Shown one piece after another: positions 22,084-38,454 of a stretch of DNA of 64,000 bases (position 1 is the stretch's first letter; each line of letters opens with the position of its first letter). This stretch comes from Urbifossiella limnaea (GTDB taxonomy: Bacteria; Planctomycetota; Planctomycetia; Gemmatales; Gemmataceae): positions 2,278,322 to 2,342,321 of the forward strand of contig NZ_CP036273.1 in NCBI RefSeq assembly GCF_007747215.1, in the 5' to 3' direction. The notes beneath the pieces are model-generated. The model searched no databases. It was not told the origin of the DNA and worked only from the letters and a program-made list of their open reading frames with translations. A program made the translations under genes and the position numbers.

Positions 22084-23844
22084 TCACTTCTTCGGCCGTA
22101 GGTCCGCGAACGCGGCCCCGAAGCGGCCGGCCTCGAAGGCGTTGAACGTCTTCATCCGCTCCTGCAACCGGATGTCGACGGATTGCAGGGTCGGGCTCGG
22201 GTGCGTCGTCGTCGGCGTCACCTCGTAGGTGAACTTCGCACCTGGCCGGAGCCGCGTCACCACGATGCCGGCGAGCTTGGCGTGCAGGGCGGCCACCGCC
22301 GGGGGGGGCGACTGTGGGGCGTCCTTCGGCGACGGTGGCGGGCCGGCCCCGTCCAGTGCCAGCGTCTCGTAGGCCCAGGCGTACAGCTGCGCCACCTCGG
22401 GGTCGGCCACGGGCCGGCCCGCGGCGGCGACCACGGCGTCGAGCAGCTTGTCGCGCGCCGCCGCGTCGTAGGTCAGCTTCCGCACCGCGGCGAGTGTTTC
22501 GTCCGACAGCTTCGTGCCGTTGGCGACGGCCTTCTGGATCAGCGCCGGGTCGCCGAACGTCTTCGCACCGAACGCCTTCGCCAGCTCCTTCTCGACCTCC
22601 AGCAGCGCGGCGCCGCGGCCGGCCAGAGCTTCACCCCCCTGGACGCCGGCAGCGTGGTCGGCGATCACCCGGGCCAGTGCGAAGGGCGCCGGGCGGAACA
22701 GCGGCCGACCCGGCGGGCCGACGTAGCCGCGGGCCTGGCGGTCGCTCGGGTACTTGAGGTCGTGGTGGCAGGCGTAGCAGTCGAACGCCGAGAAGTCGAG
22801 GCCGCCGCCGGTCTTCTCGGCGTCGGCGGCGAGCTGCGCCGTCAGGTCGAGGTTTGCCCGCAGGGTGGCGACCGTGGACTCGGCGAACCGCCGGGCCACG
22901 GCCGACTCGCCGGCCTTGTAGTGGAACGTGTTCCAGACCTTGGCCGCGTCGCGCTTCGCCAGTGCCGTGATGAACGGCATCTCGGACGCGAGCCCCCAGT
23001 GACGCGGCTGCTCTCGGGTGTACGCGAGCAGGTCGAGCGGCGGCAGCGGCGGGTGACCGGCGGCGTAGAACTCGTGGGCGACGAACCGGCCCTCCGCGAG
23101 GTTGCCGACGTGGCACGACGCGCACCGGGCCGCGGCGACGGCCGGGTCGCGGAGGTTCGCCAGCCCCCAGGCCGCTTTGCGGGCCGGGTCGGCGTCGCGC
23201 CAGGGGACGTACTTCGTGGACTCGTCCGGGTCCGGGTTGCCGTCGATCAGCACCGGGTCGCGGTGCGGGGAGCGGTACGCGCTGCCGTGGCCGTGGCACA
23301 TCTCGCATCCGACGCCCTCGGTCGTGACGAACGACGAGGGCGCCCACTTCGCTACCCGCGCCGGGGTGACCGGGAACTTCGAGGTCGCGTGGCACGCCAG
23401 GCAGCGAGTGTCGCCGGTGACCGTGTAGTCGTCCTTGCCGTAGGCCCGGCGGAGGTTGTCTTCCATGATGGTGGCGGTGCGGTTGGCCTCGGCCTTCGAC
23501 TTCCCCTTGTTGCGGTCCGTGAGGAGGTTCTTGTACGCTTCGGCGTGCAGGTCGTGGGCCTGCCACACCTTGTTTTCCCAGAGGCGGACGAAGGTGAAGC
23601 CCTTCGTCTCCTGGTACAACTCGACCTTCTCCGGGGTCTCCTCGCTGTGGCACGTCTTGCACTCGGACGCGCCGATCCAAGCGACTTCGCTCTCCGCCGG
23701 CGGAGCGGGCGGGATCGTCTTTCGCGCGCCGGCCGGCTGTGCGGCGCCCGCGGAGAAGCCGCCGGCCGCGAGGCCGACGACCACCCCGAACACCAGGGCC
23801 AGAACCCCGACCGCCCGCCCCATCCGTTCCGCCTGCGTGGTCAT
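22084..23844 (-). CDS. Exported pentahaem c-type cytochrome (third gene of operon)
   Basis: 586 residues. An N-terminal signal/anchor (VLALVFGVVVGLAAGGF) is followed by five CxxCH haem sites: CKTCH, CLACH, CEMCH, CASCH and CYACHH. The first four lie in the N-terminal half with cytochrome c554-like spacing, and extra histidines nearby can be distal ligands. A helical C-terminal half of about 250 residues carries no haem. It is a paralogue of the two upstream cytochromes but has a normal CX2CH first site and a longer C-terminal domain. The ATG overlaps the preceding gene's stop (ATGA, 23841-23844), so the genes are co-translated. Probable periplasmic electron carrier or enzyme; substrate unknown. 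Confidence 0.88.
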   Translation of the reverse strand: MTTQAERMGRAVGVLALVFGVVVGLAAGGFSAGAAQPAGARKTIPPAPPAESEVAWIGASECKTCHSEETPEKVELYQETKGFTFVRLWENKVWQAHDLHAEAYKNLLTDRNKGKSKAEANRTATIMEDNLRRAYGKDDYTVTGDTRCLACHATSKFPVTPARVAKWAPSSFVTTEGVGCEMCHGHGSAYRSPHRDPVLIDGNPDPDESTKYVPWRDADPARKAAWGLANLRDPAVAAARCASCHVGNLAEGRFVAHEFYAAGHPPLPPLDLLAYTREQPRHWGLASEMPFITALAKRDAAKVWNTFHYKAGESAVARRFAESTVATLRANLDLTAQLAADAEKTGGGLDFSAFDCYACHHDLKYPSDRQARGYVGPPGRPLFRPAPFALARVIADHAAGVQGGEALAGRGAALLEVEKELAKAFGAKTFGDPALIQKAVANGTKLSDETLAAVRKLTYDAAARDKLLDAVVAAAGRPVADPEVAQLYAWAYETLALDGAGPPPSPKDAPQSPPPAVAALHAKLAGIVVTRLRPGAKFTYEVTPTTTHPSPTLQSVDIRLQERMKTFNAFEAGRFGAAFADLRPKK

Positions 23845-25241
23845 CGGTCCCCCCCGAGCAGCCGGCCGAAATTCGCCTGCACCTGCGTCAGTCTAGTGGC
23901 GTCGAACCCGCGCGGGCTGTCCCACCGCCCACTTGTTGCCGGCGGGAACCGCAGCCCGTCTCGAATCTGCACCAGCGGCGCCTCCCAGGCCGGGTTCGCG
24001 GCGCGGCCGCCGGCGGAGTGGTAGACGGCGGCACACCCCAGGTATTGCTGCGCCAGCGAATCCCAGTCCGCGGCCGACGCCGACGCCTGTGCCAGCTCCG
24101 CGGCGACTCGCCGTGCGGTGCCGGTGGGAACTACTAGCCGGCCGGCGTCGTCGGCGTCCCGCGTGGCGGCGAGCCAGCGGTCGAGGGCGGCGACCAGCGC
24201 GGCGGCCTTCTCCTTCGCCGCGGCGCGCGGCGGGTTCGGGCGGTTCATCACGGCTTGCAGCGCCGTCAGTTCCTTCTCGATGCCGGCGCGGTAGCCGGGG
24301 GTGAGATCAAAGGCGGGGCCGGCGGCGGCGGTGTACCACGCCTCCCACGCCGGCCAGCCGAGGGCGCGGGTCGGCGACGCGCCGCCCTTCGGGTCGCGGT
24401 CGGCGACCGACTGGTGGCAGGCGTAGCAGCTCTGCCCCGCGAACTCGGGCCAGGGGCCGGCGCGGTCGGCGCGTGCCCGCAGCAGGTCGGCCGCAGCGCG
24501 GAGGCTGGCGACCTGCCCGACGGCCCACGCCTTGACCTCGAAGCCGGTGTCCGCGGCGGGGTCGGTCCAGTGCTTCCGGTACATCGGGCTGCTCTGGAAG
24601 CGTGCCATCTCGAAGTTCAGCCGCGGGTGGCCGGCGGCGATCAGGTCGTGGTCCACGTCGCGGGTGGCGTCGCCGACGTGACAGCCGACGCAGGCCGAGG
24701 CGCGGGCGACGACGTTCTTGGTCGGCACGAACCCGGTGGCGGCCTTTTCGCGGTTGCTCAGCGCCTTCCACTCCGGGAGGTAGTGAACGGTCAACCACTT
24801 CTCCTCAGGGCCGTGGCACCCCGCGCAACCGACACCCTCCGCGACGGCGCCCGCTTCCGCGCCGGGGACGGCGTGGCACTTCAAGCAGGTGGGGTTGGTG
24901 TGGGCGGGGCCGCAGCCGAGGAGCCTGGCGATGCGAACGGAGTCGGCGTTGAACAGGACGCGGTAGGCGTTGGCGTGCGGGTCGTGGGGGACCGGCGGCA
25001 CGCGGGTGAGGTCGGCGGCCCAAGTGGAGTGCTCGCTGAACCGCTCGCCGGCCCGGCCGCCGCCGTGGCACGACGCCGCGGCGCAACCAAGCCCGCCCGC
25101 GGTGGGAGCAGGTGCGGGGGCCGCTTGTTCCGCCGCCGGGGCTGGCGGTGTGGGGCCGAACAACGCGCCGGCGGCGAGGCCGGCGCCGGCGAGGAGGCAA
25201 ACCGCGGTTCGCACGGCTGGTCTCGCGGTCGTGGGTCGCAT
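23841..25241 (-). CDS. Exported pentahaem c-type cytochrome (second gene of operon), CX4CH first haem
   Basis: 466 residues with a signal peptide (VCLLAGAGLAAGALF). Haem sites: CAAASCH (a CX4CH spacing), CLKCH, CAGCH, CVGCH and CYACH. LIAAGHPRLNFEMARFQ, which supplies a conserved His between haems, is shared with the next cytochrome upstream, showing the two are paralogues. The CX4CH first site is shared too, so it is not a sequencing slip. Between the cytochromes the stop and start overlap by 4 bases. Likely a periplasmic multihaem protein of the cytochrome c554/multihaem family; the electron donor is unknown, but the divergent diaphorase operon is the obvious candidate. Confidence 0.87.
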   Translation of the reverse strand: MRPTTARPAVRTAVCLLAGAGLAAGALFGPTPPAPAAEQAAPAPAPTAGGLGCAAASCHGGGRAGERFSEHSTWAADLTRVPPVPHDPHANAYRVLFNADSVRIARLLGCGPAHTNPTCLKCHAVPGAEAGAVAEGVGCAGCHGPEEKWLTVHYLPEWKALSNREKAATGFVPTKNVVARASACVGCHVGDATRDVDHDLIAAGHPRLNFEMARFQSSPMYRKHWTDPAADTGFEVKAWAVGQVASLRAAADLLRARADRAGPWPEFAGQSCYACHQSVADRDPKGGASPTRALGWPAWEAWYTAAAGPAFDLTPGYRAGIEKELTALQAVMNRPNPPRAAAKEKAAALVAALDRWLAATRDADDAGRLVVPTGTARRVAAELAQASASAADWDSLAQQYLGCAAVYHSAGGRAANPAWEAPLVQIRDGLRFPPATSGRWDSPRGFDATRLTQVQANFGRLLGGDR

Positions 25242-25267: not shown

Positions 25268-26620
25268 CTACCTTACCAGCGCCCGAACCGCGTCCGCGGC
25301 GCCGGGCGGCAGGTCGAACCGCACTGTGCCGCGCGGCAGCGTCAGCAGCTTCGCGGCCGCGGCGAACGCGGCCGGGTCACGCGTCGCCTTCGAGCGCTCG
25401 AAGGCGGCGGCTCCGTGGTAGACCTGCTCCGTCAGGTCTCGGTCCCACTCGCCAGCCGGGAGTGCCTTCGTGAACCACTCGCGGGCGAATGCCGTCCCGG
25501 AAGCACGCAGCGCCGCCAGTTCTGCCGCCGCCCTCGTCGCAGCCGCTTCCGCGCCGGCATTCGGTCGCGGGCCGCGCATTGCTGTGCGAACGCTCGACAG
25601 TGACGGCACCATCCGATCGACCGGCCAGATCGGCTGCCACGGCACCGAGCCGAGCGGCCGACCATTCGGCGCTGGGTACGCGGCGCCAGAGTCGCCGATG
25701 CGGTGGTGGCACGCGACGCAACTGTACTCGGCGAACTCCGGCCACGGGTCCGCACGCTTCGCCCGGTCGGCGGTCAGTTTGCACGCCGCCTCCGCGTGCG
25801 CAACCCGCCCGATCAGCCAGGCCCGCGTCTCAAAATCGGGGTCGGGGCGACTCTCCGGCTTACTCCGGTCGCGCTCGTACCAGTGCTTCGGCAGGATGAA
25901 CTGGTACGTGGCGAAGTCGAAGTTCAATCGCGGGTGACCGGCCGCGATCATGTCGTGGTTCATGTCACGCAGCGGCAGCCCGTTCCCCGCCGGGGCGCCG
26001 ACGTGACACCCGACGCACGCCAGGGCACGCTCGCCGAGCTCGTACAGCTTCGACATCCCGCCCGCGTCGTACCCGGCGGGGCGAGTCGGTGCCGTGAAGC
26101 CGGTGTGCGACTGGAGCCAGCCGCTGGCGTTGCCGTGGCAGGCCTCGCAGCTCACCCCCTCGGCGCGGAGCGAAACGGCGTGGGGGTCGTTGTTCGTTGC
26201 GAGGGTCGGGTTGGTGTGGCAGGCCAGGCAGCGGGCCTCGGCCGTCGCCTTCACCTTCGGCACGCCGGGCGACGCCTCGCCGGTCAGGGCGATCATCATC
26301 TTCGTCGCCAGTTCGCCGTCCAGCACCACGTAGGCCCGGCGGTGCGGGTCGGCGGCGGCCCACACGAGCGCCGACGAGGCCCAACTCGTCGGCGTGGGGC
26401 CGGTGCGGAACACGTCGCTACCGGGGGCACCGTGACAGCCGACGGACGAGCACCCACCCTGACCGACGGCGCGGCCGACGACCGCGGGAACCGCCTTGTC
26501 TTCGGGGCGTGTGGTCGCAGTTCCTTGGACGCCGGCTGCGGGGCGGACGGTCGCCCAGCACGCGGCCGTGACCAGCACGGCCGGTGCGAACACGGCGAGA
26601 ACGGAGCCGGTACGCGTCAT
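25268..26620 (-). CDS. Exported pentahaem c-type cytochrome (first gene of operon), CX4CH first haem
   Basis: 450 residues from ATG 26618-26620 (a start 22 codons upstream is in frame but would precede the signal peptide VLAVFAPAVLVTAACWATV). Haem sites: CSSVGCH (CX4CH), CLACH, CEACH, CVGCH and CVACHH. MIAAGHPRLNFDFATYQFIL matches its downstream paralogue. The mature protein is about 420 residues and probably periplasmic. It heads the three-cytochrome operon, 26 bases before the next gene, and is divergent from the membrane/decahaem/diaphorase operon across about 190 bp, so both arms may be co-regulated. Confidence 0.87.
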   Translation of the reverse strand: MTRTGSVLAVFAPAVLVTAACWATVRPAAGVQGTATTRPEDKAVPAVVGRAVGQGGCSSVGCHGAPGSDVFRTGPTPTSWASSALVWAAADPHRRAYVVLDGELATKMMIALTGEASPGVPKVKATAEARCLACHTNPTLATNNDPHAVSLRAEGVSCEACHGNASGWLQSHTGFTAPTRPAGYDAGGMSKLYELGERALACVGCHVGAPAGNGLPLRDMNHDMIAAGHPRLNFDFATYQFILPKHWYERDRSKPESRPDPDFETRAWLIGRVAHAEAACKLTADRAKRADPWPEFAEYSCVACHHRIGDSGAAYPAPNGRPLGSVPWQPIWPVDRMVPSLSSVRTAMRGPRPNAGAEAAATRAAAELAALRASGTAFAREWFTKALPAGEWDRDLTEQVYHGAAAFERSKATRDPAAFAAAAKLLTLPRGTVRFDLPPGAADAVRALVR

Positions 26621-26808
26621 GCGGTGCGGGCCGGTCGGGGGGTGGAAAAGACGACGGTAGTTTCCCATTTTTCCCGGTCGGTACAAGCCCGCGGACGCAT
26701 TTTCCGCTATCCTCCCCGCACGCCGCCCCGCACGGACCGACCTTCACCGTTCTGCGACAGGCCGTTGACACCGGGGCGGGGCGTGGTAGCATCCGGCTGT
26801 TTCACCCG
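26621..26808. promoter_or_regulatory. Divergent promoter region of the two redox operons
   Basis: 188 bp between the first pentahaem cytochrome and the membrane protein gene. It holds the rightward consensus promoter at 26765-26792 and, leftward, a weak TTGTAC with 17-base spacing to AAACTA inside the run TTTCCCATTTTTCCC (about 26661-26675). I see no obvious operator palindrome, but the AT-rich patch around 26660-26680 is the natural site for a regulator. Confidence 0.5.
26765..26792 (+). promoter_or_regulatory. Consensus sigma-70 promoter of the redox/export operon
   Basis: TTGACA (26765-26770), 16-base spacer, TAGCAT (26787-26792). Transcription would start near 26799, about 20 bases before GTG 26821. 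A perfect -35 is rare in this GC-rich window. Confidence 0.7.
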
Positions 26809-26820
26809 GTGGGGTTCCGC

Positions 26821-27789
26821 GTGCTCCTCAGCAAGAACTGGCCCGTCGGCCGCCGGGTGGCCGTGGTCCTCGCCGCCACCGCCGCCGCCGCGCTCGTGCC
26901 CTACGCGGTCATGCGGCTGACCGGCCGGTGGGTGGCGCCGAGCAGCCCCGCCGGCGTGCTCCTCGGGCTCGTCGGCGCCGCCATCATCTTCTTCGAGATG
27001 GCCCTGTACGTGCGGAAGAAACTCCGCCGCTTCAAGGGCTGGCCGCCGATCCTGTGGAACGTCCGCCTGTGGCTGTGGGTCCACGTCGTCCTCGGCATCG
27101 CCGTGCTGCCGATCATCCTGGTTCACGGCGGGTACGGCCTCGGCGGGTTCGTACCGGCCGCGACGATGCTCCTGTTCATCGCCACCATCGCCAGCGGCGT
27201 CTGGGGGCTCGTCGTCCAGCAGTGGCTGCCCCAAACGCTCATCGACGAGGTGCCCGACGAGACGGTCGCGTCGCAGGTGGACCGCGTGGCCGCGGGGTAC
27301 ATCGGCAAGAAGCCGGTGGTGTGGTCGGCGGACAACGACCGCGACCGCACCGGCGAGGTGTTCCGGCTGCTGGAGTCGCTGACGCTCGAAGGTGCCGAAC
27401 CCGGCGAGGTGCTGCCGGTGCCGGGCGGCGGGGCGGTGGTGGCGGCGCGGTCGGAGGCGCTGGTCCGCGGCAAGCCGGCCGAGGAGCTGTGGCTGTTCTG
27501 CGAAGGGATTCTCGTACCGTACCTGGAGCGCGGCCGGGCGTCGGTGTCGCCGCTGAAGTCGGAGTACGACGCCCGCCGCCGCTTCGCCCAGCTCCGCGAG
27601 ACGCTACCCGCCGAGGCGTTCCCCGCGATCGACCGGCTGGAGCAGCTGGCCCAGTACCGCCGCGAGTGGGACACGCAGCGGCGGGTGAACGGCTGGCTGC
27701 ACGCCTGGGTGCCGGTCCACCTCGGCCTGTCCGCGGCAATGACCGGGCTGATGATCGTCCACGCGGTCCGCGCCCTGAAGTACTGGTAA
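26821..27789 (+). CDS. Integral membrane protein, candidate b-type cytochrome subunit
   Basis: 322 residues from GTG 26821 (GTG 26809 is an alternative). Five hydrophobic segments: two at the N-terminus, two central (LWVHVVLGIAVLPIILVHGG, then AATMLLFIATIASGVWGLVV), and one at the C-terminus (HLGLSAAMTGLMIVHAVRAL). His residues sit inside or at the ends of helices in pairs about 10-14 residues apart, the pattern expected of bis-His haem b ligands. A soluble domain of about 140 residues lies between helices 4 and 5. No exact family recognised. It directly precedes the decahaem cytochrome (3-base gap), so it probably forms its membrane electron gate. Confidence 0.65.
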   Translation: MLLSKNWPVGRRVAVVLAATAAAALVPYAVMRLTGRWVAPSSPAGVLLGLVGAAIIFFEMALYVRKKLRRFKGWPPILWNVRLWLWVHVVLGIAVLPIILVHGGYGLGGFVPAATMLLFIATIASGVWGLVVQQWLPQTLIDEVPDETVASQVDRVAAGYIGKKPVVWSADNDRDRTGEVFRLLESLTLEGAEPGEVLPVPGGGAVVAARSEALVRGKPAEELWLFCEGILVPYLERGRASVSPLKSEYDARRRFAQLRETLPAEAFPAIDRLEQLAQYRREWDTQRRVNGWLHAWVPVHLGLSAAMTGLMIVHAVRALKYW

Positions 27790-27792: not shown

Positions 27793-29316
27793 ATGCCACG
27801 CTCGCCGAGCCGCGATCGGTCCGACCGCTTCACCGGGTTCCGCGGCTACGTCCGCGTGCCGGACGCCTACGCCCGCGCCAAGTCGGTGGCGCTGCTGTCG
27901 GCCGGCGTGCTGCTCGGGCTGTGGCTGGTGGTCGAGGCGGCCCACCCGCGGGCCGGGGCGTTCCACACGCACGGCGAGCTGGCCAACCCGCACGCCGCGT
28001 GGGACCAGGACTGCGCCGCGTGCCACCGCTCGCAGGGGATCGGCGACTTCAGCCTGTCGAACGTGCTGAACGCCCGCGACCGCTGGCACGACCTGACGTG
28101 TACGAAGTGCCACGCCGGCCCGCCGCACCACGCCACCGTGGCCGACACCGCGTTCCACGACCGCTGCTCGAACTGCCACCACGACCACGCCGGCCGCACG
28201 ACTTCGCTCACGGACATCTCGGACGAGCACTGCGTGCGCTGCCACCAAAACCTACCGGCGGCGCACGTCGCGGGGCAGAGCGGCTACGAGGCCGTCGTCA
28301 CCGCCTTCGCGGGGAACCACCCCGAGTTCCGCGTGCTCCGGGACTACCCGCCCGGCCAGAACTACACGCCGCGGAAGTTGAAGTTCAGCCACGCCGTTCA
28401 CATGACGCCGGGCCTGACGAACCGCATGACCACAGAGCGCGTCGCGCAGCTGGGCGGCCCCGACGCCGCGAAGCGCTACGAGGGGTACAACACGGCCGAG
28501 GGCATCGCCCTGAACTGCGCCGCCTGCCACCAGCTCGACGCCCAGGCGCCCGATCATCCCGGCGTGCCGCGGGCCGAGGGGGCGTATTACCTGCCGATCA
28601 AGTTCGAGAACCACTGCCAGTCGTGCCACCCGCTCGCGGCTCCGCCGGGAAAGGCGGGCACCGCCGTGGTGGACGGATTCCCCGTCCCGCACCAGTCGGA
28701 GGGCGGCAGCCTCGCGGCGCTCCTCCGCGGCGGGTACGCCGCGAACCTGCTCAGGGCGAGCCCGGCCGCCGCGAAAGCGCCACTGCCCGGCGGCCGTCTC
28801 GACCCCGCCCCCGCGCCGAAGGAACTGACCGAGTTCGGGGCCGCCGTGGATTCGCTCACCAGCACCGCGCAGAACCAACTGCACGGCGGCGGTGCGACGT
28901 GCGGTAAGTGCCACTACCCGACACCCGGCGGCGCCTCCTTGCCGGGGGTCTCGAAGTTGCCGCAGCACACCGTGTGGTTCCAGCACGCGAAGTTTAACCA
29001 CGTCAGCCACCGCGGGCTGACGTGCGCCGAGTGCCACCCCGGCACCGGTCGCCCCGCCGCGCCGATCGGCAGCGTCAACGAGGTGGAGCCGATCGCCATC
29101 CGCGGGGTGAAGTCGTGCCAGGCGTGCCACGCCCCCGCCGGCACGCCGGTGGTGCAGGACGACGGCACGACGACGTTCGCGGCCGGGGTGCGGCACCGGT
29201 GCACCGACTGCCACCGCTACCACAACGGCGACCGCCCGCTGCACGGCCTCGGCAGCCCCCGCCGCGACCCGCAGACGCCCCAGACGCTTGCCGACTTCCT
29301 CAAGGGCGGGAAGTAG
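27793..29316 (+). CDS. Membrane-anchored decahaem c-type cytochrome
   Basis: 507 residues. A single N-terminal transmembrane anchor (VALLSAGVLLGLWLVVEA, about residues 35-52) is followed by ten CxxCH sites: CAACH, CTKCH, CSNCHHDH, CVRCH, CAACH, CQSCH, CGKCH, CAECH, CQACH and CTDCH. Several spare His residues can act as distal ligands. The architecture suggests a periplasmic electron wire of the cytochrome c3/paired-CXXCH type. The gene begins 3 bases after the b-type-like membrane gene and precedes the diaphorase genes, placing it between a cytosolic NAD(P)H oxidiser and extracytoplasmic acceptors. Acceptors are unknown. Confidence 0.9.
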   Translation: MPRSPSRDRSDRFTGFRGYVRVPDAYARAKSVALLSAGVLLGLWLVVEAAHPRAGAFHTHGELANPHAAWDQDCAACHRSQGIGDFSLSNVLNARDRWHDLTCTKCHAGPPHHATVADTAFHDRCSNCHHDHAGRTTSLTDISDEHCVRCHQNLPAAHVAGQSGYEAVVTAFAGNHPEFRVLRDYPPGQNYTPRKLKFSHAVHMTPGLTNRMTTERVAQLGGPDAAKRYEGYNTAEGIALNCAACHQLDAQAPDHPGVPRAEGAYYLPIKFENHCQSCHPLAAPPGKAGTAVVDGFPVPHQSEGGSLAALLRGGYAANLLRASPAAAKAPLPGGRLDPAPAPKELTEFGAAVDSLTSTAQNQLHGGGATCGKCHYPTPGGASLPGVSKLPQHTVWFQHAKFNHVSHRGLTCAECHPGTGRPAAPIGSVNEVEPIAIRGVKSCQACHAPAGTPVVQDDGTTTFAAGVRHRCTDCHRYHNGDRPLHGLGSPRRDPQTPQTLADFLKGGK

Positions 29317-29344
29317 CCCCCTGCTTTCTTCGCCGCTCGCGGCG

Positions 29345-31591
29345 ATGCACCGGACCGCCGCCATGATGATCGTGAAGCGACTCCGCGAGATCCAGAACCG
29401 GTACGGCTTCCTGCCGGACCGCGAACTGGCCCAGCTCGCGCGCCTCGTCGGCGTGCCGATGTACCGCATCGAGGAGGTCGCCAGCTTCTTCCCCGCGTTC
29501 CGCCAGGAGCGCGACAAGCCGGCCGTCCTCGAAGTCCGCGTCTGCCGCGACGTGACCTGCGCCCACAAGGGCGCCGGCAACCTCCTCAACAGTAAGACCG
29601 GCCTCCTGACGCTGTGCAACGACGACGCCATCGCGGCGGACCTGGCAAAGAACGCCCCCGGCTGGGCGGAGGAAGCCCGTAAGGCACCCGGCGGCAAGCG
29701 CATCGAGCTGCCGACGCCGTCGCCCGACCGCTGCAAACTGGTCGTCGAAGGGGTGTCGTGCCTCGGCCGCTGCGACCGCGCTCCGGCCGTGTGGGTCGAG
29801 CGCAACCCGATGCCGGCCGACGAGCACCACCACGCGTGGGTGTTCGCCCGCAAGGCCGGCGAGAAGGCCGACGCCTTCCGCCAGCGGATGGAAGCCACCA
29901 TCCGCGCCATCGCCGCCGGCGGGCACGTCGAGCCGGACACCGATTCGACATACGAGCCCGGCACGAACGTCGAGTACGGGATGCCGGCGCTGCCGCCCGA
30001 CCCGCGGGCGCGGTCGCTGGCCGAGTTCGAACTTCCGGACGAGCTGCCGAGCGCGAAGTGGGAGATCGACTGTTACGCCACCCAGAACCACCCGCGCGAC
30101 TACCGCGGGGTCAAGGAAGTGGCGAACTGGCTGGCCGAGCGCCCGGAGACGGCCCGCCAGTTGAAGGACGGCGAGCAGCCGGTGCCGCTCCCGCCCGACG
30201 GCCTCGGCGGCGACAAGCTCAAAGACTGGGTGAAGGCCAACCACCCGTTCCTGGCCGAGCTCGCGGCGTCGAACCTGCTCGGCATGGGTGGCGCCGGCGA
30301 GCCGGCCTACGACAAGTGGTCGCAGCTGCTCCTCGCTCGCGGCAAGGGGCCGGACAAGTACATCGTTTGTAACGGGGACGAAAGCGAGCCCGGCACCTTC
30401 AAGGACCGCGAACTGCTTCTGCGGACGCCGCACCTCATCGTCGAAGGGCTGATCCTCGCCGGGCTGCTGACGGGGGCGACGGCCGGGTACATCTACATTC
30501 GCCACGAGTACCACGAACAGATTCACGCGATCGACACCGAGATCAAGCGCGCGGAGCGGCTCGGCGCGTGCGGGCCGGACGTGTTCGGCAGCGGCATCAG
30601 CTTCCGCGCCGAGGTGTTCGAGAGCCCCGGCGGCTACATCTGTGGCGAGCAGAGCGCCCTGATCGAGGCGATGGAAGACAAGCGCGGCCAGCCGCGCCAG
30701 CGGCCGCCCGAACTGCAAACCAATGGTCTGTGGGACCAGCCGACGGTCGTGAACAACGTCGAGACGCTGGGGTGGGTCCCGTACATCATTACCCGCAAGG
30801 GCAAGTCCTACGCCGGCGCCGGGTACAAGGTGCCGGGCACGGAGGCGGCGTTCGGCGGCCGGCGGCTGTTCTCGATCAGCGGTGACGTGAAGCGGCCGGG
30901 CGTGTACGAGGTGCCGGTCGGCATCCCGCTCGGCGAGGTGTTCGACGACCCGAAGTACTGCGGCGGCGTGCCGAACGGCCTGTTCGCGGTCGCCCCGTCG
31001 GGGCCGTCGAGCGGTATCGTGCCTGCTGCGATTCCCATCGCCCCCGTACCCGACGCGGCCGGTTATGACGCGTGGCTGGCGAAGGTGCTCGGCAGCTTCC
31101 GGAGCCCGGCCGAGAAGGCGGCGATGGAGCGGATCGCCAAGAATCACCTGCCGCCCGGCGCGACGACTCTCGACATCCGCCAGCTGCCGATGGATTTGAA
31201 CTTCTTCCGCGGCGTGAACGGGGCGTTGCGCTTGAAGGTGGGCATCGCGCTGGGGGCGGCCATCGTCGTGTACGCCACCGGCACGGACGCGCTGTCGCAG
31301 GCGGTGAACTACACGCGGTTCTTCCGCAACGAGTCGTGCGGGAAGTGCGTGCCGTGTCGGCTCGGGTCGCAGAAGCTGTACCAGATCGGCCTCGACCTGA
31401 TCCGCCAGCGCGCCGCCGGTCAGGCGTTCAGCACGTCGGACCTGAAGGGCGTCGGCGAGGACGTGAAGACGCTGACCGAGGCGATGGCGCAGACCAGCAT
31501 CTGCGGGCTGGGCCAGATCGCCCCGGTACCGATGGCGTCGGCGCTGGAGTACTTCCTGCTGCCGGCGGCGCAGGCCGCGAAGGGGTCGTGA
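29345..31591 (+). CDS. NuoE-NuoF (HoxF-like) fusion: NAD(P)H diaphorase flavoprotein
   Basis: 748 residues from ATG 29345 (ATG 29363 also possible). The N-terminal thioredoxin-like NuoE part has [2Fe-2S] ligands Cys67, Cys72, Cys139 and Cys143; the gap between pairs is longer than usual, so it carries an insert. The NuoF part follows: NLLGMGGAGEPAYDKW (FMN site), IVCNGDESEPGTFKDRELL (NADH/FMN), FESPGGYICGEQSALIEAM, and the N3-type cluster motif SCGKCVPCR (Cys665, 668, 671) with a fourth Cys in TSICGLGQ. This is the same fusion as HoxF of bidirectional hydrogenases, but no hydrogenase genes are present. It would oxidise NAD(P)H, or reduce NAD, and pass electrons to the next gene's Fe-S chain. 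Confidence 0.92.
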   Translation: MHRTAAMMIVKRLREIQNRYGFLPDRELAQLARLVGVPMYRIEEVASFFPAFRQERDKPAVLEVRVCRDVTCAHKGAGNLLNSKTGLLTLCNDDAIAADLAKNAPGWAEEARKAPGGKRIELPTPSPDRCKLVVEGVSCLGRCDRAPAVWVERNPMPADEHHHAWVFARKAGEKADAFRQRMEATIRAIAAGGHVEPDTDSTYEPGTNVEYGMPALPPDPRARSLAEFELPDELPSAKWEIDCYATQNHPRDYRGVKEVANWLAERPETARQLKDGEQPVPLPPDGLGGDKLKDWVKANHPFLAELAASNLLGMGGAGEPAYDKWSQLLLARGKGPDKYIVCNGDESEPGTFKDRELLLRTPHLIVEGLILAGLLTGATAGYIYIRHEYHEQIHAIDTEIKRAERLGACGPDVFGSGISFRAEVFESPGGYICGEQSALIEAMEDKRGQPRQRPPELQTNGLWDQPTVVNNVETLGWVPYIITRKGKSYAGAGYKVPGTEAAFGGRRLFSISGDVKRPGVYEVPVGIPLGEVFDDPKYCGGVPNGLFAVAPSGPSSGIVPAAIPIAPVPDAAGYDAWLAKVLGSFRSPAEKAAMERIAKNHLPPGATTLDIRQLPMDLNFFRGVNGALRLKVGIALGAAIVVYATGTDALSQAVNYTRFFRNESCGKCVPCRLGSQKLYQIGLDLIRQRAAGQAFSTSDLKGVGEDVKTLTEAMAQTSICGLGQIAPVPMASALEYFLLPAAQAAKGS

Positions 31592-31596
31592 CGCAG

Positions 31597-31706: not shown

Positions 31707-34619
31707 ATGCCCGACCCCGCCACCCCCGCGCCCGACGACGACGGCTACGAACTCGTCGGCCCGGACACCACCTCGAACCTGTCGTCCGACGAGGACGACG
31801 TGCTCGTCCGCAAGGAGCGGGCCACCGCCGAGCAGTTCAAGGAACTGATCGAGGTCGTCCTCGACGGCTACGCCGTCACCGTGCCCAAGGCCGTCCCCAA
31901 GACCGACTCCGCGGGGGCCGAGCTGCGCGACGCCACCGGCAACCTGATCCCGCGCGCCACCACCGTTTACGACGCCGGCCGCGAACTCGTCCGCCTGGGC
32001 CGCTGGACCGAGACGGAACTCCGCGAGCGGCTGCCGGTGTTGTGCCACATGTCGCACCTCAACCCCGTCGCCGTGTGCCGCGTCTGCTCCGTCCACGTCG
32101 TGAAGGTGAAGAAGGGGACGAAGCGCGCCGAGCGGAAGCTGTTCCCCGCGTGCCACCTCGAAGTCAGCACCGGCCTCGAAGTCACCACCCGCCTCGGGGC
32201 CGAGCGGCACGAGCCGGAGCGGCTCAAGGCGATGCCCGAGAAGGAGCAGTCGAGCCTCGGCGACACCGCGAAGAAGGTGCAGAAGTCGGTCAGCCTCGTC
32301 GTCGAGATGCTGTACGCCGACCACAAGCCGGAGACCGTCCGCTGGCAGGACGACGGGCGGGAGTACAAGGAAAGCAAGCGCTACGAGAACGAGTTGCAGG
32401 CGGTCGCCGCCCGCATCGGCGTGACGAAGGTGCGCGACCGGTTGAAGCGGCCCGAGGGGGCGTTCAGCCGCAACCGGATGGCCCAGGACATCCCGAGCGA
32501 CACCGACCCGAACCGCCCCCACACCAAGCCGCTCCGCCGCATCCCGCTCGACCTGCTTGCCCCGACGGTGCCCGGCCACGAGACCCTCAGCCGCGAGGCC
32601 GACGCCGCCTGGGCCGCGTGGAACCGTGTCGTCGACGAGCGCTTCCCGTACTCGTCGCGCACCGTGGTCGTGGACCACGACAAGTGCATCCTGTGCGACC
32701 GCTGCGTCCGCTCGTGCTCGGAGGTCAAACCGTTCCAGGTCATCGGCCACACCGGCAAGGGGTACGCCACCCGGGTCAGCTTCGACCTCGACTTCCTGAT
32801 GGGGCCGCGCGCCCGCGCCGACGGCCAGGCCGACGCCAACCTGGCGCAATCCACCTGCGTGCAGTGCGGCGAGTGCATGACCAGCTGCCCCACCGGGGCG
32901 CTGTCGCTCCGCCGCCGGGTGCAGCCGCGGGCGTGGGACGACTCGCCGGAGCTGATCCCGCAGAACCCCAACATCCCGTTCCCCGAGGGCGGCGACTTCC
33001 TCACCGCGGAGGAGGTGCGGAACATCCGCGTGTACTACGTCCCGCCGGGGAAGCCGGCCGACCAGGGCCGGGTGATCGCGCCGTTCGCCTCGGTGCCGTT
33101 CGCGTACCTGAAATGGAACGAGGGGGCCGTCCGCCGGTGGGTCATCAAGCCGGGCCAGCGGAAAGTGCTGGCGTGGGGCGGCGAGTACGACACGACGGCG
33201 TTCCTCCTCACCGGCACCGGCAAGTTTAACGCCTACGAAACGGTCCGCGAGACGGTCACGCCCGGCTGGATCGGCCGGCTGCTGGGGAAGGAAGAAGAGA
33301 CGGTCGTGAAGCGCGAGCTGGGGCAGAAGATCAACGCCAACCCGATCCCCGGTACCGTGCTGCTGCTGGGCGAGATGGCCCCGCTGACGCAGAAGGCCCG
33401 CAACGCCACGATCGAGGTGTTCGCCGACCCCGACGAGCCGGGCCGGACGCTGCTCGAAGTCAGCCCCGGCGAGTACGTCGCGCCGCAGCACCCGGATGCC
33501 GCGCGGGACGTCGTGGTGTACGAGGTGACGCGGAACATGCTCGACATGTTCCTCCGCGCCCGCGACACCCGGCAGGCCGTGCGCGAGGTGTACCAGCCGC
33601 GGGCCATCGAGCGCGGCGTCGCAGAGTCCAAGCTGCTGATGGGGTCGGCGCTCCTGGCGGGTCTGCCGGAAAACGAGCGGCGGGCGGTGACCGACTTCCT
33701 GGTGCGCTCGGGGAAGCTCACGTACATTTCGGCCGCCCCCGGCGAGGTGCTGCTCGCGGAGGGGGAGCGCGCCCAGGACTTCTACTTCATCCGCATCGGC
33801 AACGTCGAGCTGTACAAGACGGTGAGCGGCCGCAAGCAGGTGCTCGGCCGGCTCGGCGACGGCGACTGCATCGGCGAGATCGCGCTGCTCGGCGACGAGT
33901 TGAAGGAGGCCGGCATCCTGCCGCAGAACGCCAGCACGACGCGCCGCCAGGCGACGGTCGCGGCCATCGACCCGATCGAGTTGGTGCGCGTCCCGGGTGG
34001 CGTTTTCGACGGCATGTGCGACCGCTTCCCGCAGGTGAAGGAGTTGCTGTTCAATCTGGTCCGGCTGCGGCTCAACCCGCCGAAGACGGTTCCCGCCGAG
34101 CTGACGCCGGCGTACGTGTCGCAGGGGCTGTTCCAGGGCCAGAAGATGCTGGTGTTGGACCTCAAGAGTTGCACCCGCTGCGACGAATGCACGCGCGCCT
34201 GCGCCGACACCCACGGCGGCAACCCCCGGCTCCTCCGCGACGGGATGCGGTTCGGCGACTTCCTCGTGGCCACGTCCTGCCGGTCGTGCCACAAGCCGTA
34301 CTGCATGGACGGCTGCCCCGTGGACGCGATCCACCGGAAGGGCACTCGGCTGGAGGTGCTCATCGAGAGCCACTGCATCGGCTGCGGGCTGTGCGAGCGG
34401 AACTGCCCCTACGGCTCGATCCACATGGTACCGCTCGGCAAGCCCGGCGGTGCCGGCACGGCGGTGGTGGCTCGACAGGCGGCGAACTGTGACCTGTGTG
34501 CGTCCGTCGGCGGGAAGCCGTTTTGTGTGAACGCCTGCCCGCACCACGCGGCCTTCCGCTGGGACGGCGACACCCTCCGCAACGCCGTGGCCGGGCGGAT
34601 GTCGGCGGCGAAGTCGTGA
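31707..34619 (+). CDS. HoxU/NuoG-like iron-sulfur protein fused to cyclic-nucleotide-binding-like domains and a C-terminal polyferredoxin
   Basis: 970 residues. About 55-170: NuoG/HoxU-type [2Fe-2S] domain (LCHMSHLNPVAVCRVCSVHV from about Cys113). About 320-400: two [4Fe-4S] motifs, CILCDRCVRSC (327-337) and CVQCGECMTSC (384-394). About 550-575: a cNMP phosphate-cassette-like stretch, LLLGEMAPLTQKARNATIEV. About 640-770: a second CRP-like domain, GEVLLAEGERAQDFYFIRIG then IGEIALLGD...RRQATVAAI, with a 12-residue insert in the cassette. About 815-960: DmsB/HybA-like ferredoxin with CTRCDECTRAC, CRSCHKPYC, CIGCGLCERNC and CDLC...C sites. No molybdopterin domain. It probably receives electrons from NuoEF and hands them on under cyclic-nucleotide control. 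The stop overlaps the permease start. Confidence 0.9.
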   Translation: MPDPATPAPDDDGYELVGPDTTSNLSSDEDDVLVRKERATAEQFKELIEVVLDGYAVTVPKAVPKTDSAGAELRDATGNLIPRATTVYDAGRELVRLGRWTETELRERLPVLCHMSHLNPVAVCRVCSVHVVKVKKGTKRAERKLFPACHLEVSTGLEVTTRLGAERHEPERLKAMPEKEQSSLGDTAKKVQKSVSLVVEMLYADHKPETVRWQDDGREYKESKRYENELQAVAARIGVTKVRDRLKRPEGAFSRNRMAQDIPSDTDPNRPHTKPLRRIPLDLLAPTVPGHETLSREADAAWAAWNRVVDERFPYSSRTVVVDHDKCILCDRCVRSCSEVKPFQVIGHTGKGYATRVSFDLDFLMGPRARADGQADANLAQSTCVQCGECMTSCPTGALSLRRRVQPRAWDDSPELIPQNPNIPFPEGGDFLTAEEVRNIRVYYVPPGKPADQGRVIAPFASVPFAYLKWNEGAVRRWVIKPGQRKVLAWGGEYDTTAFLLTGTGKFNAYETVRETVTPGWIGRLLGKEEETVVKRELGQKINANPIPGTVLLLGEMAPLTQKARNATIEVFADPDEPGRTLLEVSPGEYVAPQHPDAARDVVVYEVTRNMLDMFLRARDTRQAVREVYQPRAIERGVAESKLLMGSALLAGLPENERRAVTDFLVRSGKLTYISAAPGEVLLAEGERAQDFYFIRIGNVELYKTVSGRKQVLGRLGDGDCIGEIALLGDELKEAGILPQNASTTRRQATVAAIDPIELVRVPGGVFDGMCDRFPQVKELLFNLVRLRLNPPKTVPAELTPAYVSQGLFQGQKMLVLDLKSCTRCDECTRACADTHGGNPRLLRDGMRFGDFLVATSCRSCHKPYCMDGCPVDAIHRKGTRLEVLIESHCIGCGLCERNCPYGSIHMVPLGKPGGAGTAVVARQAANCDLCASVGGKPFCVNACPHHAAFRWDGDTLRNAVAGRMSAAKS

Positions 34620-35848
34620 GCCCCGCGGCGCTGGCGTGGCACAACCTCGCCCACAAGCGCGGCCGTACCGCCATCGCGGTCGCGGGCGTGGCCTTCGCCG
34701 TGGTGCTGGTGTTCATGGAACTCGGCCTGTACGACGGCGTCGGCCGAACCGCCGCGATGCTGTACGACGCCCTCCGCTTCGAGTTGCTCCTCGTCTCGTC
34801 CGAGTACGTGGACGTGAGCCGCACCGGCGACTTCCCCCGAGCCCGCCTCGCCCAGGCCCGCGCCGCGCCCGACGTGACCGACGCCGTCCCTGTCAGCATG
34901 GGTATCGGCACGTGGCGGATGCCGGCCCGCCGCGACCTCCTCGGCCGCGCCGTGCCCGCCGGCGGCACCCGCAGCATCAGCATCCTCGGCGTCCCGCCCG
35001 ACCGCCTCGCCGACGTGTTCGCCGTGGACCGCGGCCGCGTGTTCCGCTCCCCCGCGGAAGCGGCCCGCGCCGGCAAGCTCCTCACCGGGCCCGACGCCAT
35101 TCTGTTCGACACCCGCTCCAAACCCGAGTTCGGCCGCCTCGCCGACCTGATCGACGTACCCCCGGCCGGCGACCCCGCGACCGGGAACGTCCTGCGCTAC
35201 AACGGCCGCCATGTCGACGTGGTGGGCGGATTCGCGCTCGGCACCGGGTTCAGCTGGAACGCCATGATCCTGACCGCCGAGCCGACGTTCGCCGCGATCA
35301 CGTACCGCCCCGCGGACCGCGTCGCGTTCGGCCTCGTGTCGCTGGAGCCGGGCACCGACCCCGACGCCGCCGCGAGGACGCTGCGGGCCGCGCTGCCGGC
35401 GGACGTGCGGGTGATGACGCGCCCCGAGATCGAGGCGCACGAGAACCGCCACTGGATGCGGCTCACCTCGATCGGGCAGTTCTTACTGGTGGCGGTGGTG
35501 CTGGCCGTCGCCGTTGGGGTGATCTTCGTCTACCAGATGATGGCCGCCGACATCCGCGCCATGCTGCCGGAATACGCCACGGTGAAGGCGCTCGGCTACC
35601 GCCCGCCGTTCCTGGGCGGCGTGGTACTCGCGCAGGCCGCGTTCTTGGCCGTGCTCGGCTTCGTGCCCGGGTTCGTCGCCGCAGTCGGGCTGTACGCGGT
35701 GGCCCGCACCGTCGGCGGCATCCCGACCGAGATGACCGCTTCCCGCGCCGCCGTGGTGCTGGGTCTGACCTGCGGCATGTGCCTCGGCTCGGGCCTCCTG
35801 GCGGTGCGGAAGGTCCACGCCGCCGACCCCGCGGACTTGTTCGCATGA
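34616..35848 (+). CDS. FtsX/DevC-type ABC exporter permease 1
   Basis: 410 residues from GTG 34616, which overlaps the preceding TGA by 3 bases. Topology of MacB/DevC-type permeases: one N-terminal helix (AIAVAGVAFAVVLVFMELGL), a large extracytoplasmic domain of about 200 residues, then three C-terminal helices (QFLLVAVVLAVAVGVIFVYQ, FLGGVVLAQAAFLAVLGF, AVVLGLTCGMCLGSGLLAVR). The motif YATVKALGYRP is the coupling loop typical of DevC, and the C-terminus reads VHAADPADLF. It probably pairs with the next permease and the ATPase to export or mechanotransmit across the envelope. No DevB/MacA membrane-fusion protein is present. Confidence 0.88.
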   Translation: MSPAALAWHNLAHKRGRTAIAVAGVAFAVVLVFMELGLYDGVGRTAAMLYDALRFELLLVSSEYVDVSRTGDFPRARLAQARAAPDVTDAVPVSMGIGTWRMPARRDLLGRAVPAGGTRSISILGVPPDRLADVFAVDRGRVFRSPAEAARAGKLLTGPDAILFDTRSKPEFGRLADLIDVPPAGDPATGNVLRYNGRHVDVVGGFALGTGFSWNAMILTAEPTFAAITYRPADRVAFGLVSLEPGTDPDAAARTLRAALPADVRVMTRPEIEAHENRHWMRLTSIGQFLLVAVVLAVAVGVIFVYQMMAADIRAMLPEYATVKALGYRPPFLGGVVLAQAAFLAVLGFVPGFVAAVGLYAVARTVGGIPTEMTASRAAVVLGLTCGMCLGSGLLAVRKVHAADPADLFA

Positions 35849-37059
35849 GCCGCATCCCGCCCGTGCCGCTGGCGTGGCGGAACCTGGTCCACGACCCGGT
35901 CCGGTTCGCCCTGTTCGCCTCCGGCATCGGCTTCGCCGTAGTGCTGATGGGCGTGCAACTCGGCATCATGAACGCGATGCTCGACGGCAACACCCGCCTG
36001 TTCCGCAGCATCGACGCCGAGTTGGTGCTACTGAACCCGGCCCGGCCGGCGCTGGTGTTCGCCGACACGTTCAGCCGCCGCCGGCTCGAGCAGGCGGCCG
36101 GCGTCCCGGGCGTGGCGTCGGTCCACGCGATCTACGTCGAGCACAACGCCAGTACTCTCCGCCACACGTCCGCCGACCCCGCCGGTCGCACGCAGACGCG
36201 CAAGCTCCGCGTCGTCGGCGTGGACCCGGCGGCGCGCGTGTTCGACCTGCCGAACCTCGACCCCGGCGGGTGGGAGGCGCTGAATCGCCCCGGCACCACG
36301 CTGTTCGACCGCCTCAGCCGCCGGAACGCCGACGCGCCCGTGGAGACGGTTTTCGGCCCGTTCGCCGTCGGCACACACACCGAGCTTGCGGGTCAAAACC
36401 TCGAACTGGCGGCGGGGTTCGACCTGGGTTTCGACTTCGCCACCGACGGCACGCTGATCCTGAACGACCGGACGTTCACCCGCACCCTGCGGGAGCCCTA
36501 CTTCCCGCAGAGCCCGCAGGCCGGCGTCGACTACGCCGCGGTGCGCGTCGGGCCTGGCGCCGACCCGCTGGCCGTGCAGGACCGAATCCGCGCCGCGTTC
36601 GCCGCCGCCGCCGACGTGACGGTGCTGACGAAGGACGAACTCGTGGCGCGGGAGCGCGGCTTCTGGTGGGTGAGTACGCCGGTCGGGTTTGCGTTCGGGG
36701 CCGGTGTCGCTCTCGGGTTCGTCGTGGGCGTGGTGATCGTCTATCAAATCCTGTCGGGCGACGTGGCCGACCACCTGCCGCAGTACGCGACGCTGAAGGC
36801 GATCGGGTACCGCAACGGCTACCTGAACGGCATCGTGCTGCAAGAAGCGGGCATCCTGGCGATCACCGGCTACCTGCCCGGCCTGTTGGTGACGTGGCTG
36901 GCGTACCGGCTGCTGACGCACCTGACCGGGATGCCGCTGGAGCTGACCCCCGGCCGCGCCGGTCTGGTGTTCGCGCTGACCGCCGGGATGTGCGCCGCGT
37001 CCGGGCTACTGGCGGTGCGGCGCGTGAAGTCCGCAGACCCCGCGGACGTGTTCGGCTGA
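35845..37059 (+). CDS. FtsX/DevC-type ABC exporter permease 2
   Basis: 404 residues; ATG 35845 overlaps the previous stop (ATGA). Same topology as permease 1: N-terminal helix FALFASGIGFAVVLMGVQL, a long extracytoplasmic domain, three C-terminal helices, coupling loop YATLKAIGYRN, and ending KSADPADVFG. The shared C-terminal ADPAD motif and coupling loop show the two permeases are paralogues and probably form a heterodimer. The context with the cNMP-linked ATPase and Fe-S protein is unusual for DevC-type permeases. Cargo unknown. Confidence 0.88.
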   Translation: MSRIPPVPLAWRNLVHDPVRFALFASGIGFAVVLMGVQLGIMNAMLDGNTRLFRSIDAELVLLNPARPALVFADTFSRRRLEQAAGVPGVASVHAIYVEHNASTLRHTSADPAGRTQTRKLRVVGVDPAARVFDLPNLDPGGWEALNRPGTTLFDRLSRRNADAPVETVFGPFAVGTHTELAGQNLELAAGFDLGFDFATDGTLILNDRTFTRTLREPYFPQSPQAGVDYAAVRVGPGADPLAVQDRIRAAFAAAADVTVLTKDELVARERGFWWVSTPVGFAFGAGVALGFVVGVVIVYQILSGDVADHLPQYATLKAIGYRNGYLNGIVLQEAGILAITGYLPGLLVTWLAYRLLTHLTGMPLELTPGRAGLVFALTAGMCAASGLLAVRRVKSADPADVFG

Positions 37060-37071: not shown

Positions 37072-38454
37072 ATGTCGTCAACCCTCCCGCCGCCCGGCCT
37101 GCCCGTCCTCCGCATTCGCGGGGTGAACCACCACTTCGGCACCGGCGAGACGCGCACGCAGGTTCTGTTCGAGAACACACTGGAGGTGATGCCCGGCGAG
37201 CTGGTCATCATGAGCGGCCCGTCCGGCTCCGGGAAGACGACCCTGCTGACGCTCATCGGCGGCCTCCGCACGCTGCAATCCGGCGAGATCGAGGTGTGGG
37301 ACGCCGGCCGCGGCGACTACGCCCGCCTCGCCGGCATGGCCGAGGAGCAGCTGGTCGGCGTCCGCAGGCTGATCGGGTTCATCTTCCAGCGGCACAACCT
37401 GTTCGACTCGCTCACCGCGATCCAGAACGTGCGGATGGCCCAGCGCCTGAAGGGCGCCGCCGACCCGGACGCCGACGCCCGCGCGCTGCTGAGCTACCTC
37501 CTTCTCGGCGACCGCGACATCGACGACAAGCCGCAGGCGGCGAAGTTCCGCAACAAACCCGCGGCGCTGTCCGGCGGGCAGCGGCAGCGCGTCGCCGTCG
37601 CGCGGGCGCTCGTCAACCGCCCGAAGCTCGTCCTCGCCGACGAGCCGACCGCGGCCCTCGACGCCAACAGCGGCTTGGCCGTCGTCACGCTGCTGAAGTG
37701 CCTCGCGCGCCGCCGGGCGCCCGAGGAGCTGATGAAGTTCGTCCGCAGCGCCGTGGACTCGGCCGACGGTGGTCGCCTGGCCGACTGGCAGGTGCCGCTG
37801 CTGGACCGCGTCGCGGCCGAGACCGGCACCACGAGCCTGATCGTGACGCACGACGCCCGCATCATGAACATGGCCGACCGGATCGTCCACATGGAGCGCG
37901 GGCGGATCGAGTCGAACGTGGTGGTGGCGGAGCGGCTGTTCGTGCGCGAGGGCCTGCGGCGGTCGCCGGTGTTCGCGGCCATCCTGCCGGACGAGCAGCA
38001 GAAGATCGCCGACCAACTGCTCGTCGGCGTTCACCCCGACCAACCGGTGCGGCCGGACCACGCCGCGACCGGGCGGGTGGAGGTGTTCGGGCCGGGGCAG
38101 GCGATCGTGCGCGAGGGCGACGCGGTGGACGAGCGGAGCAAGTTCTACCTGGTTCGCCGCGGGTCCGTGGACGTGGTGACGACCGCCGCCGACGGCACCG
38201 AACACACCCTGGACCGTATGGGGCCGGGCGGCTACTTCGGCGAGGTGGCGCTCTTGATGAACCAGCCGCGGAACGCGACGGTGCGGGCGGCGACGCGGGT
38301 GGAGGTGTACGCGGTGGACCGGACGACGTTCGACCGCTTCCGGGCCGAGAGCCGGCCGTTCATCGACCGCATCCTGACGAACTTCCTTCGCCGTGCCCCC
38401 GACGCCGGCCCCGCCGAGCGGCCGGGCGGGCCGCTACACGAAGCCGGGGGCTGA
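37072..38454 (+). CDS. ABC exporter ATPase (DevA/LolD-like) with C-terminal cyclic-nucleotide-binding domain
   Basis: 460 residues. ABC domain at about 1-290: GPSGSGKTT (Walker A), LSGGQRQRVAVARAL (signature), LVLADEPTAALD (Walker B), LIVTHDARIM (H-loop). A helical insert of about 35 residues lies between Walker B and the H-loop (EELMKFVRSAVDSADGGR). C-terminal CRP-like domain at about 335-445: GQAIVREGDAVDERSKFYLV and the phosphate-binding cassette GEVALLMNQPRNATV with its cAMP/cGMP-contacting Arg. The fusion implies direct control of transport by a cyclic nucleotide or similar ligand. The TGA stop (38452-38454) lies inside a palindrome. Starts 12 bases after permease 2. Confidence 0.92.
   Translation: MSSTLPPPGLPVLRIRGVNHHFGTGETRTQVLFENTLEVMPGELVIMSGPSGSGKTTLLTLIGGLRTLQSGEIEVWDAGRGDYARLAGMAEEQLVGVRRLIGFIFQRHNLFDSLTAIQNVRMAQRLKGAADPDADARALLSYLLLGDRDIDDKPQAAKFRNKPAALSGGQRQRVAVARALVNRPKLVLADEPTAALDANSGLAVVTLLKCLARRRAPEELMKFVRSAVDSADGGRLADWQVPLLDRVAAETGTTSLIVTHDARIMNMADRIVHMERGRIESNVVVAERLFVREGLRRSPVFAAILPDEQQKIADQLLVGVHPDQPVRPDHAATGRVEVFGPGQAIVREGDAVDERSKFYLVRRGSVDVVTTAADGTEHTLDRMGPGGYFGEVALLMNQPRNATVRAATRVEVYAVDRTTFDRFRAESRPFIDRILTNFLRRAPDAGPAERPGGPLHEAGG

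Follow-up and report, generated by a model that had tools for sequence, protein, structure and literature searches.

An iron-sulfur protein with tandem cyclic-nucleotide-binding domains in a putative transmembrane electron-transfer operon of Urbifossiella limnaea

The regulatory regions of the protein kinases PKA and PKG carry tandem cyclic-nucleotide-binding domains (CNBDs) with Glu/Arg cassettes. In bacteria, according to the main text of Kannan et al. (2007, PMC2246266), tandem domains of this type are also found on a redox enzyme, the pyridine nucleotide-disulphide oxidoreductase of the Bact_Pyrredox family, and CNBD-redox fusions are therefore already known as a kind. In that main text the terms ferredoxin, iron-sulfur and Fer4 do not occur. 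The mycobacterial Pat acetyltransferase Rv0998 (4avc) is another bacterial enzyme fused to a domain binding cyclic AMP (cAMP). Here we describe a further variant, encoded in a 64,000-nucleotide window (the whole stretch analysed) from Urbifossiella limnaea, contig NZ_CP036273.1, positions 2,278,322 to 2,342,321. The protein, here called CNBD-FeS (970 residues; 31707..34619, + strand, read from an ATG start), carries two CNBDs between two iron-sulfur (Fe-S) halves. Its tandem CNBDs with Glu/Arg cassettes are like those of PKA and PKG, which are its top Foldseek matches, but they are joined to Fe-S domains and not to a kinase, and the placement of the domains differs. CNBD-FeS also resembles Rv0998 (VIA-align Z 16.0; NCBIfam 1.6e-10, under cut-off), although the latter has one CNBD and an acetyltransferase output.

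The Fe-S parts of the protein have likenesses of their own. The N-terminal half recalls the group A6 [FeFe]-hydrogenase HydA, HoxU and NuoG in its [2Fe-2S] and paired [4Fe-4S] motifs and in its NuoE/NuoF partner, but it has no matched H-cluster or molybdenum domain and lacks the Cys residues of the His-ligated cluster. The C-terminal half, with 16 Cys, is like the four-cluster ferredoxins HydN, DmsB and HycB, but is fused behind two CNBDs. In its gene content, the set unites multihaem cytochromes c, a membrane cytochrome b and an Fe-S carrier, as do the Geobacter Cbc and Shewanella Mtr conduits. Among such conduits from inner membrane to periplasm, we know of none with a CNBD. In the literature that could be searched, which leaves out most subscription journals, we found no recognisable description of CNBD-Fe-S fusions or of this gene set.

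The domain order of CNBD-FeS is [2Fe-2S] and two [4Fe-4S], CNBD1, CNBD2, and four [4Fe-4S]. A preliminary description, made from the sequence alone, had proposed one clear and one likely CNBD between the Fe-S halves, and both are recovered here. CNBD2 (residues ~660-789; 33684..34073, +) matches PF00027 over residues 676-773 with 61.3 bits (cut-off 27.5; E 8.8e-17). CNBD1 (residues ~473-625; 33123..33581, +) was recognised through its orthologues and by the beta strands of the models. All nine orthologue fragments of CNBD1 matched PF00027 (E up to 0.02), six of them above the cut-off and the best at 1.7e-15, and in hhalign the CNBD1 profile matches that of CNBD2 with a probability of 96.7 and an E value of 3.3e-10. 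Pfam also placed a Fer4 pair at 326-398 and a Fer4 group at ~857-947, and the solved chains closest in sequence are Fe-S subunits at both ends and, in the middle, regulatory subunits of PKA. Conservation was followed in a homologue set of 47 loci from the genome_contigs collection, of which 40 full-length or near-full-length proteins form, together with that of the window, an alignment of 41 rows (A1). Going by the record titles, these proteins belong to Gemmataceae and other planctomycetes, Verrucomicrobiota (Spartobacteria, Chthoniobacteraceae) and one Riflebacteria genome. Truncated loci (L039, L056, L059, L063) and partial Cloacimonadota matches (L065-L067) stayed outside the alignment, and weak Fer4-type matches, being generic, were excluded from the counts.

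Structure prediction agrees with this reading of the middle region. AlphaFold2, run on A1 for the whole protein, gave a predicted local distance difference test score (pLDDT) of 73 and a predicted template modelling score (pTM) of 0.75, with ~80-94 in most of both CNBDs; the tandem region alone (A4) reached a mean pLDDT of 89.8 and was modelled as tandem beta-rolls. PKA and PKG tandem CNB domains were the first Foldseek matches of the whole-protein model and the top matches of the tandem-region model (E 3.8e-15). The CRP-like fold expected by the preliminary description is thus what the models show. In single-domain comparison, VIA-align placed CNBD2 at Z ~17, with a root-mean-square deviation (rmsd) of 2.1-2.9 A over ~130 residues. 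Alignment of both domains to PKA-type structures gave an rmsd of ~10-18 A, which means that the arrangement of the two rolls is not that of PKA.

The phosphate-binding cassettes are under strong constraint. The cassette of CNBD1, GEMAPLTQKARNAT (33369..33410, +), keeps Gly555, Glu556 and Arg565 in 41/41 rows, always with a Glu-to-Arg spacing of 9. In CNBD2 the cassette GEIALL...RRQAT (33873..33956, +) has Gly723 and Ala749 in 41/41 rows and Glu724 and Arg747 in 40/41 each. Conservation of both cassette arginines, which had been put forward as a check on the CNBDs, is therefore found. The insert noticed earlier between GEIALL and RRQAT is real, with 23 residues from Glu to Arg against 9 in the first cassette; Verrucomicrobiota have a long version of it, most Gemmataceae a short one. 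An altered ligand preference had been suggested from it, but Glu724 and Arg747 are kept although the spacing varies between 9 and 43 across the family, which makes the insert look like a loop that is tolerated. Judged from these sequences, CNBD1 is the better conserved domain, its cassette being kept also in the more distant members (16 of 16), all of them genes adjoining a cytochrome b and 14 of them of a compact form described below. By pattern, a complete CNBD2 cassette occurs in two of these 16 (L079, L080). Because of this difference, CNBD1, and not the "clear" CNBD2, is the likelier of the two to bind a ligand. A Gly in the beta2-beta3 loop has been tied to cAMP-type cassettes, according to the main text of Kannan et al. 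(2007, PMC2246266). In our alignment CNBD1 has this Gly in 34/41 rows while CNBD2 has Ala in 37/41, and across the family the marker favours CNBD1.

The cluster ligands of the Fe-S halves are conserved as well. The ligands of the [2Fe-2S] cluster (C113, C124, C127, C149; 32043..32153, +) and of two HydA/HoxU-like [4Fe-4S] clusters (C327/C330/C333/C337 and C384/C387/C390/C394; 32685..32888, +; Pfam Fer4_9 at 326-398) are kept in 41/41 rows. The HydN/DmsB-like domain has 16 Cys for four [4Fe-4S] clusters between residues 822 and 944 (34170..34538, +). All 28 cluster Cys are identical in 41/41 rows, except that the last four are counted in 40/41 since one contig ends there, and they make up the set expected for one [2Fe-2S] and six predicted [4Fe-4S] clusters. 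The DmsB-like C-terminus of the preliminary description is thus recovered, with HydN, ArrB and DmsB as the nearest NCBIfam families. Its HoxU/NuoG-like N-terminus stands as regards the [2Fe-2S] and two [4Fe-4S] motifs, but this half has no Cys between residues 149 and 327 and so lacks those for the His-ligated [4Fe-4S] cluster that NuoG and HoxU have. In NCBIfam it comes closest to the [FeFe]-hydrogenase of group A6 and to HoxU; for both halves the matches are well under cut-off. FeFe_hydrog_A6 matched with 8.1e-23 and 80.6 bits against a cut-off of 765, over profile positions 134-211 of 571, and the NuoG equivalog was missed with 37.7 bits against 470. No H-cluster domain was matched in the protein and no hydrogenase family appeared in the Pfam scan. 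A NuoG or hydrogenase catalytic subunit was rejected as an identity, given the lack of a catalytic domain and scores far under cut-offs.

Several redox genes lie beside CNBD-FeS. Immediately upstream lies a NuoE-NuoF fusion (29288..31591, +; true start probably 29345 or 29363), with a thioredoxin-like [2Fe-2S] domain, NADH/flavin mononucleotide (FMN) domains and a [4Fe-4S] domain. PF01257, PF01512 and PF10589 all score above cut-off, and Cys 86, 91, 158, 162, 684, 687, 690 and 739 are invariant (n=38). Since the genome holds three other NuoF-like loci, this fusion is one NADH module among several, an additional and dedicated copy. It is preceded by a decahaem c-type cytochrome with one N-terminal hydrophobic segment (27793..29316, +; 10 CxxCH, Pfam Cytochrome_C7), whose ten motifs are present in 31/33 family members. 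Before it lies a dihaem cytochrome b-like membrane protein (ORF 26584..27789, +; homology from ~26812). The latter has no Pfam match; its hydrophobic segments are present, its H167/H181 and H379/H393 are found in 30/30 sequences, and these four invariant His fit two putative b haems. On the opposite strand lie three c554-type cytochromes, at 22084..23844 (-; 5 CxxCH, Pfam), 23841..25241 (-; 4 CxxCH, Pfam) and 25268..26686 (-; 4 CxxCH, Pfam Cytochrome_C554). Across 45 neighbourhood loci (44 and the window, many of them truncated by contig ends), NuoE-NuoF was found in 41, the decahaem cytochrome in 33, the cytochrome b in 30 and c554-type cytochromes in 26. The operon is also present in records named Gemmata sp. 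IIL30, Zavarzinella formosa DSM 19928 and Limnoglobus roseus PX52.

Class III cyclases adjoin some of these loci more often than expected by chance. We counted 8/44 loci against 0.96 expected or, with one clade collapsed, 4/38 against 0.85 (P ~0.009), under a Poisson model without phylogeny that used a pooled density for 26 uncounted genomes and a BLAST search with one family. This count is preferred to a smaller one of 7/18 genomes, which is biased because the chosen genomes included 7 of the 8 positives. All seven neighbouring cyclases tested score above the PF00211 cut-off: CHASE2-linked in L050, L052 and L054 (Verrucomicrobiota), FHA-linked in L090 (planctomycete), and others in L040, L085 and L105. 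At what we take to be the catalytic Lys and Asp sites, L050, L052, L085 and the U. limnaea cyclase L068 look canonical. The 7.8-Mb genome of U. limnaea has five PF00211 class III cyclases, L068 being the one with canonical sites. As a separate observation, cyclases with Asp for the base-recognising Lys lie beside CNBD-FeS operons in L090 (3957-5723, -), L091 (3997-5760, -) and L040 (5826-7622, +), and L069 of U. limnaea has the same motif.

The gene set is wider than the NADH-linked form of the window. Using the cytochrome b profile (A5) as bait, we found this protein in 28/294 Planctomycetota, 6/194 Verrucomicrobiota and 3/39 genomes of the phylum of the Riflebacteria locus. The CNBD-FeS profile found 15/199 Planctomycetota and 3/194 Verrucomicrobiota, all 15 and all 3 with the cytochrome b. 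Among 18 retrieved loci, namely 16 cytochrome b matches without a previously known CNBD-FeS neighbour and L095 and L096, which have their CNBD-FeS gene at another place in the genome, a tandem-CNBD Fe-S gene adjoins the cytochrome b in all of the former 16. In 14 of these it has a compact form, a tandem CNBD and a four-cluster ferredoxin without NuoE-NuoF or the HydA-like half. Seven further regions gave five with the pairing and one (L107) with a weaker CNBD match adjoining; in L105 the Fe-S gene is ~15 kb off, with only its end inside the retrieved stretch. A set made up of the tandem-CNBD ferredoxin, the dihaem cytochrome b, the decahaem cytochrome c and c554-type cytochromes is thus spread over Planctomycetota, Verrucomicrobiota and Riflebacteria; within this family it is the NADH module that varies, while the putative receptor part stays the same. 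Some variants were also seen: in the planctomycete L083 the protein is split in two genes (13973-16615 and 16600-17337), the break falling after the CNBDs and before the four-cluster ferredoxin, and the Gemmataceae relatives L014, L015 and L017 have paralogues with CNBDs in which the four-cluster ferredoxin is interrupted by a long insert that precedes its last cluster motif. In a Verrucomicrobiota locus, L062, a separate CNBD gene (6698-7801, +) lies directly upstream of NuoE-NuoF, and no cytochrome b or decahaem protein was found there by BLAST.

From the position of the CNBDs, the constraint on their Glu and Arg and the frequency of neighbouring cyclases, our leading hypothesis is that of a cyclic-nucleotide-gated link that hands electrons from the cytoplasm, by way of haem b, to haems in the periplasm. 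We consider it probable, though by no means secure; the gating, the ligand, the direction of flow and the complex itself are inferred. CNBD-FeS would be the Fe-S subunit on the cytoplasmic side of a complex that carries electrons across the membrane. NADH, through the FMN and Fe-S centres of the NuoE-NuoF fusion, would reduce the HydA-like half, from which electrons would pass to the HydN-like half and onward to the membrane-embedded dihaem cytochrome b, and from haem b to the membrane-anchored decahaem cytochrome and the periplasmic c554-type cytochromes. A 3',5'-cyclic nucleotide, most likely cAMP but possibly cyclic GMP or another cyclic nucleotide monophosphate, would bind CNBD1, with CNBD2 as helper, and shift the C-helices as in PKA regulatory subunits. 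As the CNBD pair lies between the two halves, such a movement would alter the cluster distance between them or the fit of the protein to the cytochrome b. In the compact form, the CNBDs would control the ferredoxin domain or its docking. Allosteric gating, as proposed in the preliminary description, is hence kept for cyclic nucleotides but not for cyclic di-GMP, one of the ligands named there, because the retained Glu/Arg cassette is of the 3',5'-cyclic nucleotide monophosphate type.

Several observations weigh against this hypothesis. The whole-protein model is poor at residues 337-388 (pLDDT <50) and consequently does not fix the placement of the Fe-S halves relative to each other. The CNBD1 of the window protein falls under Pfam detection, carries inserts and has Asp at the beta2-beta3 position where Gly prevails, so that this marker does not extend to the window's own protein. 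By reading, 13 of the 16 distant members, most compact ones included, lack the CNBD2 Glu. No PF00211 cyclase adjoins the operon of the window, all five of the genome lying outside the 64 kb. In L053/L054/L064, L040, L090, L091 and L105 (the last read as Asp) the canonical Lys of the neighbouring cyclase is replaced by His or Asp, and the messenger may for this reason not be cAMP in every lineage.

It could alternatively be that the CNBDs bind a cyclic nucleotide yet control assembly or the docking to membrane or partner, as a scaffold switch outside the electron path. PKA CNBDs are known to work through partner docking and release. Moreover, the compact form keeps both CNBDs with a single Fe-S domain, so that they are not solely a hinge between halves; without an N-terminal half they must act on the ferredoxin domain or on its docking, which keeps this explanation alive. 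The extended form, however, places the CNBDs between two Fe-S halves, and the partners conserved nearby in most loci are redox proteins. On balance we regard a scaffold switch as unlikely, but as a serious competitor of gated electron flow. Reverse flow, in which periplasmic cytochromes feed a transfer to NAD+, seems to us slightly less likely again: the sequence does not fix the direction and NuoF-type modules are reversible, but transfer from c-type haems to NAD+ is uphill, and no ion-pumping subunit was found among the conserved neighbours, none having been specifically sought elsewhere. That the CNBDs are relic structural spacers without ligand binding is improbable, since the failure of Pfam on the window CNBD1 and the loss of the CNBD2 Glu in most compact members are outweighed by a CNBD1 Glu and Arg that never vary, in A1 or in the 16 distant members, and by a CNBD2 pair retained across variable spacing, neither residue being needed by a spacer.

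Returning to the gated link, it is tempting to propose, as a tentative idea to which we give not quite an even chance, that these proteins make up a separate class of respiratory complex, present in at least three phyla. Its Fe-S entry subunit would itself be a second-messenger receptor, and the product of an often neighbouring cyclase would switch electron flow across the membrane, fast and without transcription. As part of this same tentative idea, the compact form (tandem-CNBD ferredoxin, dihaem b, decahaem c and tetrahaem c554) would represent the core, of which the NADH-linked version in the window would be an extension. Respiratory electron flow is usually attributed to redox poise, membrane potential and gene expression; a receptor within the electron path would mean direct control of a respiratory wire by a second messenger. 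It would also give a role to cAMP-type signalling in Planctomycetota and Verrucomicrobiota, which to our knowledge has been little studied there. The gating hypothesis is testable in cultured strains, and a ligand-switchable electron conduit would serve as a useful bioelectronic part.

Other identities were considered for CNBD-FeS. A CRP-type transcription factor was rejected, no helix-turn-helix family being present among the 15 Pfam matches, and so was a defence (Pycsar) effector, for which PADLOC shows a generic CNBD and class III cyclase resemblance only (PycTIR 5.2e-6).

Downstream of CNBD-FeS, an FtsX-like permease abuts its stop codon (34619..35848, +; Pfam FtsX, MacB_PCD) and is followed by a second one (35845..37059, +), recognised from its translation and with tblastn matches in L001, L002 and L021. 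Next comes an ATP-binding cassette (ABC) ATPase with a C-terminal CNBD at residues 338-425 (37072..38454, +; PF00005 2.2e-26, PF00027 2.9e-23). This ATPase lies 2.5 kb downstream of CNBD-FeS in the same direction. Of the three above-cut-off CNBD proteins of the genome, these two sit in one operon; the third is a patatin-like protein, named from reading its sequence, and a fourth CNBD protein, Crp-like and of 271 residues, is under cut-off. A Ser/Thr protein kinase family (typed in L040) adjoins 10-11 of the 45 loci, in the L027-L054 neighbourhoods, in genomes that are rich in kinases. Finally, a very stable hairpin (31592-31690, z -6.9) lies between NuoE-NuoF and the CNBD-FeS gene. A riboswitch was rejected here because the hairpin is a dispersed palindromic repeat, with 80 matches over both strands and hence ~40 genomic places; of 207 candidates from a first look, only 40 were scored for this count.

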